From a virus: a stretch of DNA of 38,404 nt. Positions 17,040-24,155 of the stretch are shown here, one piece after another (the stretch's first letter is position 1; each line of letters starts with the position of its first letter). The translations under genes were made by a program, and so were the position numbers. Location of the stretch: the IMG/VR virus record IMGVR_UViG_3300046542_000297, positions 1 through 38,404 of that record. One strand, given 5' to 3'. Below the pieces are notes generated by a model. The model searched no databases, was not told the DNA's origin, and was given only the letters and a program-made list of their open reading frames with translations.

Positions 17040-17398
17040 GGGCAATGGGTGTATATATACACCCATTGCCCGCAATCCCCATACACCCATAGCCCGTACC
17101 AATATACACCCATAGCCCTACTTTGACTTAGGGCAATGGGTGTATACACCGATTGCCCATTCTATACGTATAGAATGGGCAATCGGTGTATACACCCATT
17201 GCCCAATATAGAGCATTTGCATGGCAGTATATTGGGCAATGGGTGTATATTGGCGGGGATTGGGCAATGGGTGTATATTTGAGCGGTCAATGGATGTATA
17301 CAAATGCGGGCAATGGGTGTATAGTTGATCTAATTGGTTCGCGGGCTATGGGTGCATAGGCGCAACCTTCTATTCTTCTTTAGGGCAATGGGTGTATA
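17040..17398. repeat. Telomere-region repeat array (16-bp motif, about 14 copies)
   Basis: The motif GGGCAATGGGTGTATA or a close variant occurs on the plus strand at 17040, 17131, 17177, 17234, 17262, 17285, 17308, 17343 and 17383. It occurs on the minus strand at 17056-17071, 17080-17095, 17103-17118, 17143-17158 and 17189-17204. Pairs form a perfect 32-bp palindrome (17040-17071) and the 74-bp palindrome at 17131-17204. The last copy runs into the protelomerase start codon. In N15 the protelomerase target is likewise surrounded by extra inverted repeats. The copies are probably protelomerase or regulator binding sites. Confidence 0.9.
17131..17204. other. telRL: Telomere resolution site telRL (74-bp perfect palindrome)
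   Basis: Every base of 17131-17167 is matched by the reverse complement in 17168-17204, centred on TCTATACGTATAGA. Protelomerases cut such sites staggered about the centre and reseal each side as a covalently closed hairpin. The inner part (ATTGCCCATT next to the centre) closely resembles my recollection of the N15 telRL core. It lies 196 bp upstream of a protelomerase gene with all catalytic residues. Cleavage would give a linear prophage with the protelomerase gene at one end and parA near the other. Confidence 0.93.
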
Positions 17399-17399
17399 T

Positions 17400-19034
17400 A
17401 TGAGCGACGAACTGATGACAGGTGAAGAAATGCAGCCAGACCAGGAGCGCGCCAGCTTTGGCAATTACGGCGGAGCCACTCGCCAGAAAATCGATCTACC
17501 GCCTTTGATCGACAAGCTGATCAGCGATATCCAGCTCATCGACTCAGACCGTTACATGTCGCGCAGCAAGAAAACTCAGCGCATAACGCGAGTGGCTGAG
17601 AGTCTTAAAAAGCGCCTGTATGAGGACAAGCGCCGAAACGAAGACGACAAGCTGAAGGCGTCGACCTATCGCCGATATTTGACCCTCGTTCGCAAGGCTG
17701 TCACTGCGCAGAACTGGCGGCATCATGGGCTTGAGGAGTCTGCTCGACGCCTGGCGAAGCATCACCCACGCTACGCCGAGCAGCTGCACGCACTGGCCGA
17801 AATGGAAAACATTACAGAGCTCCGTCTCGCGCACCGTGATCTGCTGAATCAAGTTCGCCAGGATCGCGACCTCGATGCTTTCGACGCGATCCAAGGGATG
17901 AAGCTCGACCACGAAGTAATGCGGCACCTGGTGCTGCCTGCAGTAACAAAAGTCGAGCTTGCGACTCAGGCCGCTGCCACGCTTGAGAAGCGCGCAACCA
18001 ACACGATCGAGGTCAACTATTACAAGTTCATTGATACCGCAAGCGGGCTACTGACCCACGCCGAAATCGGCAGTGATGGCGAGCCTGTACAGCGGTTCTC
18101 GGCGCTGGCGCTTGGGCTTGCGATGGTTACCGGGCGCCGGGAGGTTGAGGTTTTGGTGCTAGGGCGCTTCAAAAAAGTCGGTGAGTTTGAGCTCGAATTC
18201 AGCGGGCAGGCCAAGCGACGCGGCGGCGTCGACTACAGCTCGAGCTATCGAATCTATAGCCTTATCCCGGCCGACCTGGTACTCGCGGCCGTAGAACGGC
18301 TGCGGGCATTGCCTGAGGTGCTCGAGCTGCAGCACCTGGACAACACCGAAATCAATCGCCGCGTCGCGAAAACTCTAAATACCACGGCCAAACGTGTATT
18401 TGGCGGCGAGGGTTGGGTATTCAAAGACAGCCGCGCCATATGGGCCCGAATCGTTTTCGAGACCCACTTCACGCGCGACGCTCGATGGAAAACCGTAAAC
18501 GAAACGGTGTTCTGGCGGGAAATGCTGGGGCACGAGGACATGGATACCCAAGAAAGCTATAAGGCTTTCAAAATCAGCTACACCAACAACGCGCCGGCCG
18601 AGCCGGTAAGCAAGTACGGCAGCCGGCTCGAGGCGCTCGAAGCGCTCGACGAGCAGGCCGCTGGCGGTGTGGCTTCGCAGCGGATTCATAGTTGGGTTAA
18701 GCAGGCTGTGGCCGCTTCGCCTGACGTCCTTATCTCGCAGAAAGCGATCAGTGTGAACGTCGGCAGCCACCGGCAAGCGATTAAAGACTATCTGGCTATG
18801 GCCAGTGAGGCTCTGGCCACGCCTAACCGCTCAATCCGGGCGGTCGCGCCGGTCGTTCCGGCAGAGGTGTCGAATGCCAGGCCGAGAATCTCGGTTCGCG
18901 AGATCTCGGACGGTCGTTTTGTTGCTGTCGCCAAGTTAAATGGCGTCGAGATCGCCAGCGCGGAAGGTGACAGCAAGGAGGAGGCTCAAAGGGCCTTGTT
19001 CGCCGCTGCCGCCAGCGGTAAAACCAGCGCCTGA
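17400..19034 (+). CDS. tel: Protelomerase (TelN/TelK-like)
   Basis: A 544-residue hairpin telomere resolvase that converts circular or dimeric replicated DNA into linear plasmid with hairpin ends. With the ATG at 17400, the five active-site residues of TelK-type tyrosine recombinases are present with the same local spacings: Arg247 (TGRREVEV), Lys272 (GQAKRRG, 25 residues later), Arg345 (KDSRAIWARI), His378 (33 later, LGHEDMDT) and the nucleophile Tyr387 (9 later). Residues 1-230 are the helical DNA-clamping part. The length is shorter than TelN (631) and close to marine-type enzymes. The start lies in the last telomere-region repeat, which suggests autoregulation. An ATG at 17430 has a better ribosome-binding site (AGGTGA). 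Confidence 0.95.
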   Translation: MSDELMTGEEMQPDQERASFGNYGGATRQKIDLPPLIDKLISDIQLIDSDRYMSRSKKTQRITRVAESLKKRLYEDKRRNEDDKLKASTYRRYLTLVRKAVTAQNWRHHGLEESARRLAKHHPRYAEQLHALAEMENITELRLAHRDLLNQVRQDRDLDAFDAIQGMKLDHEVMRHLVLPAVTKVELATQAAATLEKRATNTIEVNYYKFIDTASGLLTHAEIGSDGEPVQRFSALALGLAMVTGRREVEVLVLGRFKKVGEFELEFSGQAKRRGGVDYSSSYRIYSLIPADLVLAAVERLRALPEVLELQHLDNTEINRRVAKTLNTTAKRVFGGEGWVFKDSRAIWARIVFETHFTRDARWKTVNETVFWREMLGHEDMDTQESYKAFKISYTNNAPAEPVSKYGSRLEALEALDEQAAGGVASQRIHSWVKQAVAASPDVLISQKAISVNVGSHRQAIKDYLAMASEALATPNRSIRAVAPVVPAEVSNARPRISVREISDGRFVAVAKLNGVEIASAEGDSKEEAQRALFAAAASGKTSA

Positions 19035-19261
19035 CACGGCGCCAAGTCACTTGCCGGGGCCAGGCGCCCCGGCAAAACATCTCGATTTTCCCCGTCTCTG
19101 AGCTCCGCCTCTGCCTCCTCTATCTGCTCGAGCGCTGTTGCGATCATATCGAGCAGCTCTCCGCGTGTTGCTTCCATTCCGGCCTTCGTGGCCATGCTAA
19201 GCGCCGATTTGGCGCGGCTGAGTTTGGCGGACGCTCTGTCCATTTTTTCCTGGCACTGCAA
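18986..19261 (-). CDS. Small unknown protein behind a LexA box (candidate antirepressor)
   Basis: A 91-residue protein on the minus strand between rep and tel. The TTG start has a strong GGAGG eight bases upstream. An internal ATG at 19243 preceded by AGGA is an alternative. Residues 5-60 are highly charged and helical (SAKLSRAKSALSMATKAG... ELLDMIATALEQIEEAEAELRDGE), probably a short coiled coil, and the tail is Ala/Leu/Pro rich. I recognise no family. Its 3' end overlaps the end of tel by 49 bases in antisense. A consensus LexA site lies 35 bases upstream, so expression should rise on DNA damage. A role in inactivating CI is inferred, not shown. Confidence 0.6.
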   Translation of the reverse strand: MQCQEKMDRASAKLSRAKSALSMATKAGMEATRGELLDMIATALEQIEEAEAELRDGENRDVLPGRLAPASDLAPCQALVLPLAAAANKAL

Positions 19262-19295
19262 GGTGATTCCCTCCCCTCGTATTAAAAAGCCATCA

Positions 19296-19311
19296 CTGTA
19301 CTTTCATACAG
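19296..19311 (-). promoter_or_regulatory. LexA (SOS) box
   Basis: CTGTACTTTCATACAG matches the gammaproteobacterial LexA consensus CTGT-N8-ACAG without mismatch. The sequence continues to the right as TATAA, giving TATACTG on the minus strand, a possible -10 overlap. The only gene it can control is the small minus-strand ORF ending at 18986, because the gene on its other side (rep) reads toward it. Confidence 0.8.
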
Positions 19312-19321
19312 TATAACGCGG

Positions 19322-22300
19322 TTAAGCTCGCATGAGCTTCGCCGCGTAGTTCAATGTCCACTTCGCCGATGCGAGGTCGACGTCTGGATGCGCCAGCCCC
19401 ATTACCACCTCAGGCCTCAGCGCCCCGATCACTCGTGCAACCGGCGTACCGTGGGGGAGGTCGCAAAGCGAGGCGACTGCAAACACGCGCTCAGCAATGT
19501 TGAGTGGATACTTTTCAAATGTACTTACACACTCATACTGCAAAGTATCCATTCCCGCGCTGATCGCTCCTGCGTTGAGCAGGGCGGCATGATCCGCTGG
19601 AAGCTCCTCAGGGGCCAGCAGGGGCTGATGAGTGGCTTCGTGCTCGTGGGTGGTCAGGGAGTGGACGTTTTTCGCTGCACGGCGCTTCACGTAGGCCATA
19701 ACGAACGCCCATTTCTCCTCGTTGAGGGTGTAGAAGTTGTGAGAGCTCGTTTTGTGCTTCTTCGTGGACTGCCCCAGCCGCTCGAGAATCGACTTAACGA
19801 GGGTGGTTGCGCAGACCTTCGAGCCAAGCGTAGGCACGTAGCGGCCGAGCTTGAGCGTGTTGTAAAGGTCTAGCGTGTCCTGGTCGGTTTTGATCAGTGC
19901 CAGCACCTGGCGGCACTGCTCGCTGCCAAACTTGCCCGTTCCAGTGTGCCGGTCGACGGTAAGGATCTCGAAAATCTGCTCGAGCATGGCGCGAGGCGAG
20001 GCCTTGAAGCGATGTTGAGTCAGAACGACGCGCGCTTTGCGCTGCGCGAGGTCATAGGCCTGGGCCTGGGCTTCGCTCGACTGCAGCAGCTCGAGCGCCA
20101 CGACTTTGGTGATACCGCGATCGTCATAAAACGCGACGTCGTCAGGGGTGATCTCGTCCACGCCGAGCTGATGCTCGATGTGGTAGCGGTCGACCTGGGC
20201 GCTTTCGCTCTCGCTGCGCACTTCCTCGCGGTTGAGCTTGAGAAACTCCTCCTCGGTTGGCGTGGCCACGCTGTTGAGCAGATCCATACGCTTGGCGAAA
20301 ACGAGCTCGCCCGCGAACTTGCGATTTTCTCGCGACGTTTGGGTGAGTTCCTCCTCGGCGCCTTTCAGATCCAGGCGCTGCACGAGATAGCCCTCGCCCT
20401 CGAGCATCAGCAGCAGATTGTTAGCAAAGTGCGATCGCGCCTTATTTTCCGAAGCGACTGCAGACAGGTAAACCGTGTCGAACGCAGTTTTCTTGCGGGT
20501 AACGCGGTACTCGTCGGGTGTGTTTTCGATCTCGCAGGCGAGGCCCTCGAGCACCAGCATGCCGCGATAGAGGACGTCAGGGTTTGTTTCGCGCTGGCCA
20601 GAGGTGTGGCCGATTCCGATGATGTAGTGCTTTGCTGTCCGATCGCGGCGCAGCATCTGCAGGGCGTCGGATGGGCCGACCGTATTGCCACTGAATAGGC
20701 CGAAATGGCAGTCAAAATGTGGCTTTGGCCACGACATTGATACGCCCGAGGAAATAGCCGGCGAATAGATCAGCACGTCGTATTTGAGTGCCTCGTCTTT
20801 GGGGTTGAGCAGAAACTCTTTAACGTCCTCGTCGGCCTTGCTGTCAGCGTGAACGAGCAGCATGCGAACCGGGTCGATCTCGCCGGTTTTGACCTTATCC
20901 TCGACCAGGGCGGCCATTTTCTTGGCGCTCTCTGCAGAGTCGTTGGCCACCAGTACGCGGCGCCCGGCGCAGATCTGATCGACGGCCAGCTGCCAGACGC
21001 TTTCCTCGTCGCCGTGGTCGACGCGGATCTGCTGGTTATGGCCGATGACCTCGATAACGGTGATCACCTGGCCAGGGCGAGCCAGTTCGCAGAATTCGAT
21101 AACAGTGTCGTTTGCGTCGGCGTCGCAGAGCAGTACGCGCCTGGCCGACGCCACGGCGTTAATCAGCGAATCCATAACCTTGACGCGCCCGTCGACCGGG
21201 CCGGTGGTGGTGTGGCGGATAACCTGGCTCGCTTCGTCGATGCAGAGCGTTTCGAGCGTGGTAAACCAGCTGCGCTCCTCGGCGTTGTAAAACTTGCGAT
21301 GGGTCAGGCTGTTGACGCAGCAGGCCAGGTGCGAAACGTAAGGCATATGCCAGGCCTCGACCTCGCGGTAATGCTCGACCTTTACGTCGGCCTGTTGAAG
21401 GGTGCCGCGCTTCAAGTTTAGGCGCGCGGCGGCGTCGTCGAGTAGGGAGATACGGTGCGCCACGTAAGCGCCTTTTTCCGACGCCTGCAGAATCGGTGCG
21501 ATTACCTCCTCGGTTTTCCCCGAGCCCATAGGCGAGCGCAAGACGACGATCCCCTCGAGACTTTCGATCAGGTCGGCCAGGTGCGCGGGCACCATTGGAG
21601 AGCCGTGGACCGGGTGGGGAGTGGCGGCAATCGGCATGTAGCGGATGTGGGCTTTCTTGAGCGTCTCAGGCGAGAAGCTGCGCAGCTGCTGCGCGCGGCT
21701 GAGCTTGTCGCGGCTGATCCAAAGCGCAAAGCTGCGCAGCTTGGCGCGGATGGCGTCTGAAATCATAGCGGGCAGCTGCTGCAGCACGACGGCGATAATC
21801 TCGTCGGTACCGAACTTAATCGGCACCAGGTTCATGCCGGCATTGATCGCCATTTTCGCCGGTTTCTCAGCCAGGCGGCCGCTGTACGAAACGCGCTGCA
21901 GGCAGTAGCTAAACCAATCTTTCTCGGCACGAAAGACGCTGGCGCGAGCGTGCAGCGCTTTGGCCGTGGCCTTGAGTCCGTAGGCGACGTGGTAGTCGTT
22001 CCAGTCGGTCGGGCCTTTTTCAGTGCGTTTAGCCTCGGCGATTTCCTCGTCGCTCATATCGAACGCGGGAACGATGCCAGGGTGCTGGAATTCTTTGTGT
22101 AGCTCGAGGGCGGCCAGCAAACCGGCGTTACCCGCCGTTTTCCATTGGTCATTGTCGGCGGCGTTGAGGAAACGCCAGGCCGGGCAATGCTTGTTATAGG
22201 TGGTCAGCACCTTGACCAGGTTGTCGACGTTGAACGTGACGACCACGGCCACGCTGCGGCCTGCGGCCTCCTCGGCCAGGTAGACGCTGGCGCCGGTCGC

Positions 22301-23179
22301 AAAACCTTCGACGGCGTAACGGTACTCGGCCGTTTCAATATCGCCGATGATGCAGTGCGCGCCGTCCATCTTGACGCCGCGGCCTTGCATTTTGGTGCGT
22401 TTCTCGTCGTGGTAAATGCGCTGCAGGCCGAGAAAATTGCGCTGGATATCGAACATCGGAACGGCGGTAAAAACACCGTGACTGTCACGCAAACGCTTCA
22501 TTTCAAAGCGTGACACGATTTCGGAAATTTGCTTGTCCTGCAGGTAAGGTGCGCTGCCGTCCTCGATTCCAGCGTACTCGACAAAGCTCTCGAAAACGCG
22601 GCCAGACTTGAGCTCGACCTCGAAAACGCTTCGCTCGCCGGTTGACCAGGTGCGCTCGTAAGCCAGGCGCTCGTTATGAATACGCTCTGCCTGGATCGCA
22701 GCAGCTGCCGCGTCGGCCTCGAGCTGCGCGGCACGTTCGGCGCGCTTGGCTTCTTGCTTCTCGCGAAACGCGCGATCGCGATCGCTGATCTCGAGGCCCT
22801 TTTCGGCCTTGTACAGATCGATAAGCGCACTAAGGCCAGACCAGGTCGAGGCGCCGGTTACGTTGTTGCTGAAAGTCAGGTAAGGGAAATCAATCGGCGA
22901 CTGATCGGTTTTTTTTGGCGTCGAGCGTTTCAGCTCGCCCCATACCATCACCTTGCCGGTGTAGCGGGTGTCGGTCGCTTCGACCTTTACCTTTGAATAT
23001 TTCTTGAGGCGCTCGCCGTTGAGGCGAACGCTGGCGCTGACTGATGACCATTTAACCGAGGCGTCGGCTGCCGCTGCGGAAATGTCCGCATCGAAATAGG
23101 CCATCAGGTCGTAAGGGTCGGAGGAGAATCTCTCCTGATAAAAGGCCCCTAGCCCGGTGCTCCGTGGTACGTTTGTCAT
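19322..23179 (-). CDS. repA: RepA-type replication protein (primase-helicase)
   Basis: A 1,285-residue multidomain replication protein, close to the size of N15 RepA (about 1,320), which primes, unwinds and initiates replication of the linear prophage. The start at MTNVPRSTGLG has GGGA six bases upstream. Toprim-type primase residues are visible: EGFATG (Glu near 291), DND near 342 and TDWNDYH near 392. A helicase domain follows with Walker A SPMGSGKT (about 550-556), Walker B-like CIDEAS (about 647) and a later GRRVLVANDSAES motif. The C-terminal 250 residues are of unknown fold. In N15 the origin lies within repA; the same may hold here. A CI-like operator and a GTAC-type repeat lie upstream. 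Confidence 0.92.
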   Translation of the reverse strand: MTNVPRSTGLGAFYQERFSSDPYDLMAYFDADISAAAADASVKWSSVSASVRLNGERLKKYSKVKVEATDTRYTGKVMVWGELKRSTPKKTDQSPIDFPYLTFSNNVTGASTWSGLSALIDLYKAEKGLEISDRDRAFREKQEAKRAERAAQLEADAAAAAIQAERIHNERLAYERTWSTGERSVFEVELKSGRVFESFVEYAGIEDGSAPYLQDKQISEIVSRFEMKRLRDSHGVFTAVPMFDIQRNFLGLQRIYHDEKRTKMQGRGVKMDGAHCIIGDIETAEYRYAVEGFATGASVYLAEEAAGRSVAVVVTFNVDNLVKVLTTYNKHCPAWRFLNAADNDQWKTAGNAGLLAALELHKEFQHPGIVPAFDMSDEEIAEAKRTEKGPTDWNDYHVAYGLKATAKALHARASVFRAEKDWFSYCLQRVSYSGRLAEKPAKMAINAGMNLVPIKFGTDEIIAVVLQQLPAMISDAIRAKLRSFALWISRDKLSRAQQLRSFSPETLKKAHIRYMPIAATPHPVHGSPMVPAHLADLIESLEGIVVLRSPMGSGKTEEVIAPILQASEKGAYVAHRISLLDDAAARLNLKRGTLQQADVKVEHYREVEAWHMPYVSHLACCVNSLTHRKFYNAEERSWFTTLETLCIDEASQVIRHTTTGPVDGRVKVMDSLINAVASARRVLLCDADANDTVIEFCELARPGQVITVIEVIGHNQQIRVDHGDEESVWQLAVDQICAGRRVLVANDSAESAKKMAALVEDKVKTGEIDPVRMLLVHADSKADEDVKEFLLNPKDEALKYDVLIYSPAISSGVSMSWPKPHFDCHFGLFSGNTVGPSDALQMLRRDRTAKHYIIGIGHTSGQRETNPDVLYRGMLVLEGLACEIENTPDEYRVTRKKTAFDTVYLSAVASENKARSHFANNLLLMLEGEGYLVQRLDLKGAEEELTQTSRENRKFAGELVFAKRMDLLNSVATPTEEEFLKLNREEVRSESESAQVDRYHIEHQLGVDEITPDDVAFYDDRGITKVVALELLQSSEAQAQAYDLAQRKARVVLTQHRFKASPRAMLEQIFEILTVDRHTGTGKFGSEQCRQVLALIKTDQDTLDLYNTLKLGRYVPTLGSKVCATTLVKSILERLGQSTKKHKTSSHNFYTLNEEKWAFVMAYVKRRAAKNVHSLTTHEHEATHQPLLAPEELPADHAALLNAGAISAGMDTLQYECVSTFEKYPLNIAERVFAVASLCDLPHGTPVARVIGALRPEVVMGLAHPDVDLASAKWTLNYAAKLMRA

Positions 23180-23223
23180 TTTGTCCCTTTGGTCCAAAGT
23201 ACAAAGGTGAAAAAGTACAAACG
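23179..23223. repeat. Dispersed GTACAAA/AAAGG repeat at the rep promoter
   Basis: Copies of TTTGTCC, CCAAAGTACAAAGG, GTGAAAAAG and GTACAAA lie directly before the rep start codon. The same words occur at 16743-16789, 28531-28570, 28807-28868 and 31415-31487. On the minus strand TTGTACTTTTTCACC lies where a rep -35 could be, so binding here could also regulate rep. Confidence 0.6.
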
Positions 23224-23224
23224 A

Positions 23225-23252
23225 TTGACGCTGTATCACACGGGCCTAAACT
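23225..23252 (+). promoter_or_regulatory. Promoter of putative small RNA
   Basis: TTGACG (23225-23230) and TAAACT (23247-23252) are separated by 16 bases on the plus strand. No protein gene follows; a strong plus-strand terminator comes about 110 bases after the expected start site. Confidence 0.55.
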
Positions 23253-23489: not shown

Positions 23490-24155
23490 TTATAGAACCT
23501 CTCCTTTGTCGAAGGTCGCACGAACCCCGACAACGACACCAATGCTCTCGAATGTATCACCGACCTGCTGCATGGGAAACTGAGGGTTTAGCGCTCGCAG
23601 GTAAAATGCCGAGCCGTCAAGCGTCAATTTCTTGAATACAGGTGCGGTTGAGTCGCCGAGGTGCGCGACGACAAAGTCATTCGCGACCGCTTTTCGCGCA
23701 GGATCGACGAAAATCGTGTAGCCGTTCGGAAAACTTACGCCTGCTGGCGCTTGCATGCCCTCGTCGCGCACCGTCATAGCGAAGACGCGACCAGGTGGCG
23801 TATCGAGCGGCACGACCCATTGGGTACCGGCCGGAAGCCTTTTAGGGTCGGGGTTCTTCGCCCATTCAGCAGCACGCGCCCACGGAATTACAGGCACGCG
23901 GCTTGTGCTCTCGCTTGGAGCTGTGAACCCGTTCGGGTCTGCTGCTTCCTTTAATAATATGTCTACGGTCGTTCCTAAGCCTTTGGCCAGGGCGACGGCG
24001 ACGTAGACGCTAGGCGCCACGTCCTTTGTCTCGATCGTTGCAAGGTGCCCGGTTGACATGTCGACGCCTGCGGCATCGATCAGGGCTTGCAACGACCATC
24101 CAAGGGCTTGCCGCCGCATCCGTATTGCGGTGCCGATTGTGTAGTCGCGCTGCAT
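23490..24155 (-). CDS. cI: CI-like lysogeny repressor, autocleavage residues lost
   Basis: A 221-residue repressor with GAGGGAACA before its ATG. Residues 5-65 are a lambda-repressor-type HTH (TIGTAIRMRRQALGWSLQALIDAAGVDMSTGHLATIE). The C-terminal domain aligns with lambda CI and LexA-type S24 domains (FPNGYTIFVDP, FKKLTLDG, LNPQFPMQ). The nucleophile context, usually GDSM or GNSM, reads DEGMQAP, so the serine is Gly133. The usual Ala-Gly scissile pair (VQAGEW in relatives) reads ARAAEW. The Lys (175/176) remains. The dimerisation fold is probably kept, but RecA-driven self-cleavage should be impossible. It keeps the prophage silent, and its operators flank the gene. Confidence 0.88.
   Translation of the reverse strand: MQRDYTIGTAIRMRRQALGWSLQALIDAAGVDMSTGHLATIETKDVAPSVYVAVALAKGLGTTVDILLKEAADPNGFTAPSESTSRVPVIPWARAAEWAKNPDPKRLPAGTQWVVPLDTPPGRVFAMTVRDEGMQAPAGVSFPNGYTIFVDPARKAVANDFVVAHLGDSTAPVFKKLTLDGSAFYLRALNPQFPMQQVGDTFESIGVVVGVRATFDKGEVL

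Follow-up and report, generated by a model that had tools for sequence, protein, structure and literature searches.

A putative LexA-controlled antirepressor gene between tel and rep of linear plasmid-prophages

Introduction

In phage VP882, which is of a related linear type to the virus considered here, Qtip has been shown experimentally to be an antirepressor that sequesters the CI repressor (PMC12802170, PMC11323111), and CI itself has been found by experiment to be autoproteolytic (PMC10432266). Tum of phage 186, AntC of N15, and GfoA and GftA of the Gifsy phages are LexA-repressed proteins that inactivate repressors which are not cleaved (PMC3121763). The LexA-controlled antirepressor is thus a known principle, and N15 is its precedent in a linear prophage.

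Several recent reports have dealt with the lysis switch or the relationships of linear phages. A 2023 survey of linear plasmid-like phages used an autoproteolytic CI as a selection rule and set non-proteolytic repressors aside (PMC10432266). A 2025 survey reported HAP-1-like phages as being without a TF-smORF module (PMC12802170), and a further study from 2025 noted Pseudomonas and Stutzerimonas relatives of linear phages, with induction not discussed. In phages that were set aside, or reported to be without the module, the slot between tel and rep does contain a small-protein module, for which the transcription factor would be host LexA. No paper describing a LexA-box small-ORF module in this slot was found in our literature search, and neither the small-protein family nor its breadth and slot appear to have been described before.

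Organization of the locus

The window analysed here, a virus record of 38.4 kb taken at its full length, has a gene order typical of a linear plasmid-prophage and is of the Pseudomonas type. The protelomerase gene tel (17334-19034, plus strand; PF16684, E 9.7e-28) and the replication gene rep (19322-23239, minus strand; phrog_4913, E 2.5e-283) are convergent. The true start of tel may be later, since similarity to relatives begins near 17469 in the Tel alignment. On the 5' side of tel, a self-complementary region (17055-17278; opposite-strand self match of 77% over 224 bases) probably serves as the telomere resolution site. A CI repressor of S24 fold (23490-24155, minus strand) was identified by PF00717 (E 9.2e-15) and by alignment with VP882 CI, and family profile matches place a CII-like gene, in divergent orientation, and a Q-like antiterminator beyond it.

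The gap of 288 bp between tel and rep contains one minus-strand ORF as its sole gene (18986-19261; 91 aa, TTG start), which is proposed here to encode an SOS-induced antirepressor. An alternative in-frame ATG lies at 19243-19241, and the last 49 bases of the ORF overlap the 3' end of tel. Reading the minus strand directly, a ribosome-binding site, GGGGAGGG (19269-19276), is separated from the TTG by 7 nt and is kept in all nine of the closest relatives. A G+C-rich 10-bp inverted repeat with a 5-base loop (19051-19075) also lies within the last part of the ORF, immediately after the stop codon of tel. It is kept in relatives, one of which has changed on both arms with pairing preserved; a classical terminator is not evident, as no T run follows the repeat.

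The small protein

Over the first 58 codons of the small ORF, mean dN is 0.11 against a mean dS of 0.68, and third positions account for 773 differences as against 283 and 242 at the other two. This pattern of substitution indicates that the ORF is coding and under purifying selection. In the AlphaFold2 (AF2) model, helices 2-26 and 33-55 form a two-helix hairpin (pLDDT ~90), and the tail that follows is disordered.

No convincing match for the small protein was obtained in Pfam, PHROGs or NCBIfam; weak TarH-type matches were rejected because they look like helix noise. A fold search of PDB and BFVD returned nothing with E < 0.1, two-helix hairpins being too generic for such a search, and tblastn of the small ORF against named phage records gave no match. 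Within the linear phages, the Pseudomonas-side families of the small protein are mutually homologous (hhalign probability 95-96%), and the Halomonas family aligns with the first ~50 residues of the window family, though not significantly (P 0.011). The evolutionary rate of the small ORF is correlated with that of the C-terminal part of CI (rho 0.79) and with that of Tel (rho 0.67), but because the genes are linked these correlations were not taken as proof.

The LexA box

A perfect CTGT-N8-ACAG box, whose minus-strand sequence is CTGTATGAAAGTACAG (19296-19311), lies 34 bp from the start codon of the small ORF and is the sole perfect copy in the window. The extended operator form TACTGT-N8-ACAGT (19295-19313) is perfect as well; with one mismatch allowed, 0.11 matches to this form would be expected in the window. 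Judged from the window alone, a perfect CTGT-N8-ACAG box is not beyond chance (0.31 expected; at least one in 27 of 100 shuffles). It is therefore conservation in relatives, not in-window statistics, that decides that the box is real. The nine closest IMG/VR relatives have it in the same place with fixed half-sites, while the inner eight bases vary (TATGAAAG, TTAAATAG, CTAGATAG and TATAAAAA, among others). In the genome of Pseudomonas frederiksbergensis, CTGTATAAAAAGACAG precedes lexA itself, which identifies the motif as that of the host. The ends of the convergent tel and rep genes are at 19034 and 19322, so no gene start other than that of the small ORF lies downstream of the box.

A possible -10 element, TATACT (19310-19315, minus strand, read directly), overlaps the box, and TATAC or GATAC/AATAC precedes the box in most relatives. 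Since no sigma-70 pair emerged from a scan for consensus promoters, the assignment of TATACT is a guess. Overall, from the sequence, it is very likely that host LexA represses the small gene.

A first-pass annotation of this DNA had pointed to a mismatch-free LexA box 35 bp upstream of a helical 91-residue protein with a strong ribosome-binding site, and had argued that the box could have no other target. Apart from the distance, which is 34 bp, this description is borne out by the position of the box, the conserved GGGGAGGG site, the hairpin predicted over residues 2-55 and the convergence of tel and rep. The SOS wiring that it proposed has strong support, in that dozens of divergent phages have kept the box and a host lexA gene is preceded by a matching one.

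Distribution among linear plasmid-prophages

Loci were collected from the Tel alignment (52 from IMG/VR and nine from bacterial genomes), with two more found separately, and 62 tel loci of linear plasmid-prophages were testable. A box and an ORF occupy the tel-rep slot at 55 of these 62, a count that includes a few duplicate records of a single phage; distinct contigs number ~52. The boxes are perfect at 43 loci and of the form CTGT-N8-CCAG at 12; they are followed, after 23-45 bp, by a helical ORF of 84-116 aa with a ribosome-binding site. Hosts include Pseudomonas, Stutzerimonas and Halomonas, and the bacterial-genome loci include one in P. frederiksbergensis, where Tel is 93% identical. Strain 36C6 of P. 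frederiksbergensis carries a relative. The same box and ORF occur in a P. aeruginosa plasmid record (CP075795), for which no gene is listed in the incomplete gene table of the collection.

Other loci depart from this arrangement in part. One (L056) has the ORF with a box that is degenerate but symmetrical, CTGG-N8-CCAG, and another (L066) has a perfect box in the gap, behind which the search, within its limits, found no small ORF. Two loci (L062 and L063) have no LexA box in the gap and instead contain a 77-aa and a 172-aa ORF, which are perhaps another input module. A 36-kb contig of a Halomonas-type linear phage (L075, NZ_JAIHOM010000047.1) is assigned in its record to the cyanobacterium Spirulina subsalsa, and probably comes from a bacterium accompanying the culture.

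In Vhmlvirus, a box precedes an unannotated 74-aa helical ORF on the minus strand adjoining tel in VP58.5 (L151 10521-10745, NC_027981) and vB_VpaM_MAR, and VHML has the same arrangement with one mismatch in the box (the modules other than that of VP58.5 are at L156 and L157). The same kind of module is therefore present in another genus.

The CI repressor

In an alignment with VP882 CI, the A-G cleavage site is replaced by A-A in the window CI, and the catalytic Ser by Gly. These two sequence changes suggest that it is non-cleavable, in agreement with the first-pass annotation. Among the readable cleavage sites of CIs from the box-carrying Pseudomonas and Halomonas groups, none is A-G. The catalytic Ser is absent from many of these CIs (Gly, Leu or Thr instead), and the Halomonas-group CIs have Arg for the catalytic Lys. 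The CIs of three loci (L005, L007 and L008) keep Ser and Lys; here A-A or A-T is assumed to block cleavage.

Linear phages with a cleavable CI (A-G, Ser and Lys) show the opposite pattern. VP882, K242, Valp1, HY01, Aeromonas PCAh2 and ST2 are without a perfect box in the gap, which makes six of the seven cleavable-CI types, the exception being VP58.5. When CIs were clustered at 70% identity, a box was found with 14 of 18 non-cleavable clusters versus one of seven cleavable clusters (Fisher p 0.007), a value that ignores kinship and is indicative only, because box and dead CI may share a single correlated origin. L062 and L063 have a dead CI (A-E site, Lys to Arg) yet no box.

A natural immunity swap is seen between phiHAP-1 and its relative L052. 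At the DNA level they are 95% identical over the stretch that begins with tel and reaches the beginning of rep, and identity between their small proteins is 98%, whereas the CI genes have had the greater part of their coding sequence swapped (phiHAP-1, L013 7793-8497; L052 6305-7186), leaving CI identities of 48% in the N-terminal part and 37% in the C-terminal part. Both CIs are without the cleavage residues, and they still have much of the N-terminal HTH region in common. That CI was exchanged while the small protein remained almost unchanged counts against strict CI specificity: the small protein either recognises something that both CIs have, such as the HTH domain, or acts on a target other than CI. 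The small proteins of Vibrio 1F-97 are strictly specific (PMC10432266), and some Gifsy antirepressors are not (PMC3121763).

Proposed mechanism and alternative explanations

We consider it probable that the 91-residue ORF encodes a host-LexA-repressed antirepressor of the phage CI, with the SOS wiring very likely and the action on CI an extension from the features described above. In the lysogen, host LexA would sit on the box in the promoter region of the small gene. Upon DNA damage LexA would be inactivated and the small helical-hairpin protein made, which would then bind and inactivate the phage CI, a repressor that is itself predicted to be without RecA-stimulated self-cleavage. Lytic genes would thereby be derepressed, leading to prophage induction. 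The gene would fill the slot of VP882 qtip, with host LexA replacing the phage transcription factor. This reading is drawn from the LexA box, the cleavage-dead CI, the Qtip slot and the Qtip-like helical hairpin, and also from the organization of the gene as a single-gene LexA unit with no match to a repair or toxin family. LexA-controlled antirepressors are, moreover, established in 186, N15 and Gifsy (PMC3121763). The swap between phiHAP-1 and L052, the cleavable-looking CI of VP58.5 and the dead CI without a box in L062 and L063 count against it.

The first two of these observations would also fit a gene that is LexA-regulated but whose product acts elsewhere, be it in Rep or Tel function, as a lytic regulator, or as a host SOS or cell-division factor, since the exchange of CI left the small proteins 98% identical, and VP58.5 has a similar module beside a CI that is apparently cleavable. 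However, the slot is that of Qtip, CIs without cleavage need some other SOS input, and the swapped CIs retain much of their N-terminal HTH region in common; we consider a target other than CI unlikely. The pairing in VP58.5, together with the retention of Ser and Lys in the CIs of some window relatives, could alternatively mean that another SOS route inactivates CI and that the small protein is an auxiliary antirepressor which speeds or boosts induction. Such a role is improbable: in the window and several relatives CI is without cleavage site and Ser, and the window has no second perfect LexA box.

Two further explanations dispense with the protein or with LexA. The 49-base opposite-strand overlap with the end of tel, which relatives have likewise, would allow a damage-induced transcript to run antisense into the 3' end of tel and lower protelomerase, but selection at the codon level, the conservation of ribosome-binding site and start, and the location of the predicted fold outside the overlap all favour a protein product, and we regard the antisense explanation as very improbable. 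In principle, a phage repressor could use any conserved palindrome as its operator, and LexA binding is itself a prediction. Yet phages whose CIs differ greatly retain the CTGT-N8-ACAG half-sites, and these agree with the box ahead of lexA in a host genome, which leaves an operator of this kind barely credible.

If the antirepressor reading is true, the virus could still wake on host injury despite a damage-insensitive repressor. The model offers a testable account of damage sensing by dozens of Pseudomonas and Halomonas phage-plasmids, and related phage pairs could be used in tests of the evolutionary rewiring of the input to the lysis switch. As to novelty, the first-pass annotation had spoken of an SOS-wired version with no known family. 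The absence of a family holds for Pfam, PHROGs and NCBIfam; the principle is known, including from AntC of N15. That annotation missed the N15-type precedents, the Vhmlvirus module with the cleavable-looking CI of VP58.5, and the CI swap.

Comparison with known systems

Qtip of VP882 (79 aa) resembles the window ORF in lying beside tel, in the same slot and on the same strand. For Qtip, too, the AF2 model is a two-helix hairpin (3-34 and 41-68), obtained from a single sequence and with lower confidence. An hhalign comparison of Qtip with the window family was collinear over the first ~50 residues but not significant (probability 4.6%, P 0.009). As in TF-smORF modules, a small ORF of < 100 aa lies between tel and rep. 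The systems differ in their control: Qtip is switched on by a phage quorum-sensing receptor and has no LexA box, while the window ORF has such a box. Unlike Qtip and the TF-smORF modules, the window gap has no phage-encoded transcription factor beside the small ORF. VP882 CI, moreover, keeps A-G, Ser and Lys, whereas the window CI is not autoproteolytic by sequence. It is conceivable, though rather doubtful, that the tel-rep slot is an old, exchangeable input port occupied by one lineage of hairpin antirepressors, LexA-wired in most of these phages, in which CI no longer cleaves itself, and rewired to a phage quorum-sensing receptor in VP882, with its self-cleaving CI. On this view an SOS antirepressor family would include Qtip as a derived or replaced member.

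ORF35 of the Halomonas phage phiHAP-1 (95 aa), annotated as hypothetical only, occupies the same slot behind a LexA box, CTGTATACTTGAACAG, in a phage with a dead CI; its homology to the window family is weak (P 0.011). The 74-aa ORF of Vhmlvirus is likewise weakly related to the window family (P 0.007), and the CI of VP58.5, unlike that of the window, looks cleavable.

In the stretches of N15 that were scanned, the sole perfect box, CTGTATAAAAAAACAG, is at 21660, before gene 26 (UmuD-like; N15 21660-22078, L146 1661-2079), and not between tel and rep. Gene 26 may, we presume, be the antC of the literature. Homology of the small protein to gp31 and gp26 of N15 was rejected (hhalign P 0.15 and 0.64, respectively). 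The window ORF resembles the Tum/GfoA/AntC class in having a conserved perfect LexA box 34 bp upstream, to which binding is predicted, and a cognate repressor that, to judge by its residues, is not self-cleaved; N15, like the window, is a linear plasmid-prophage.
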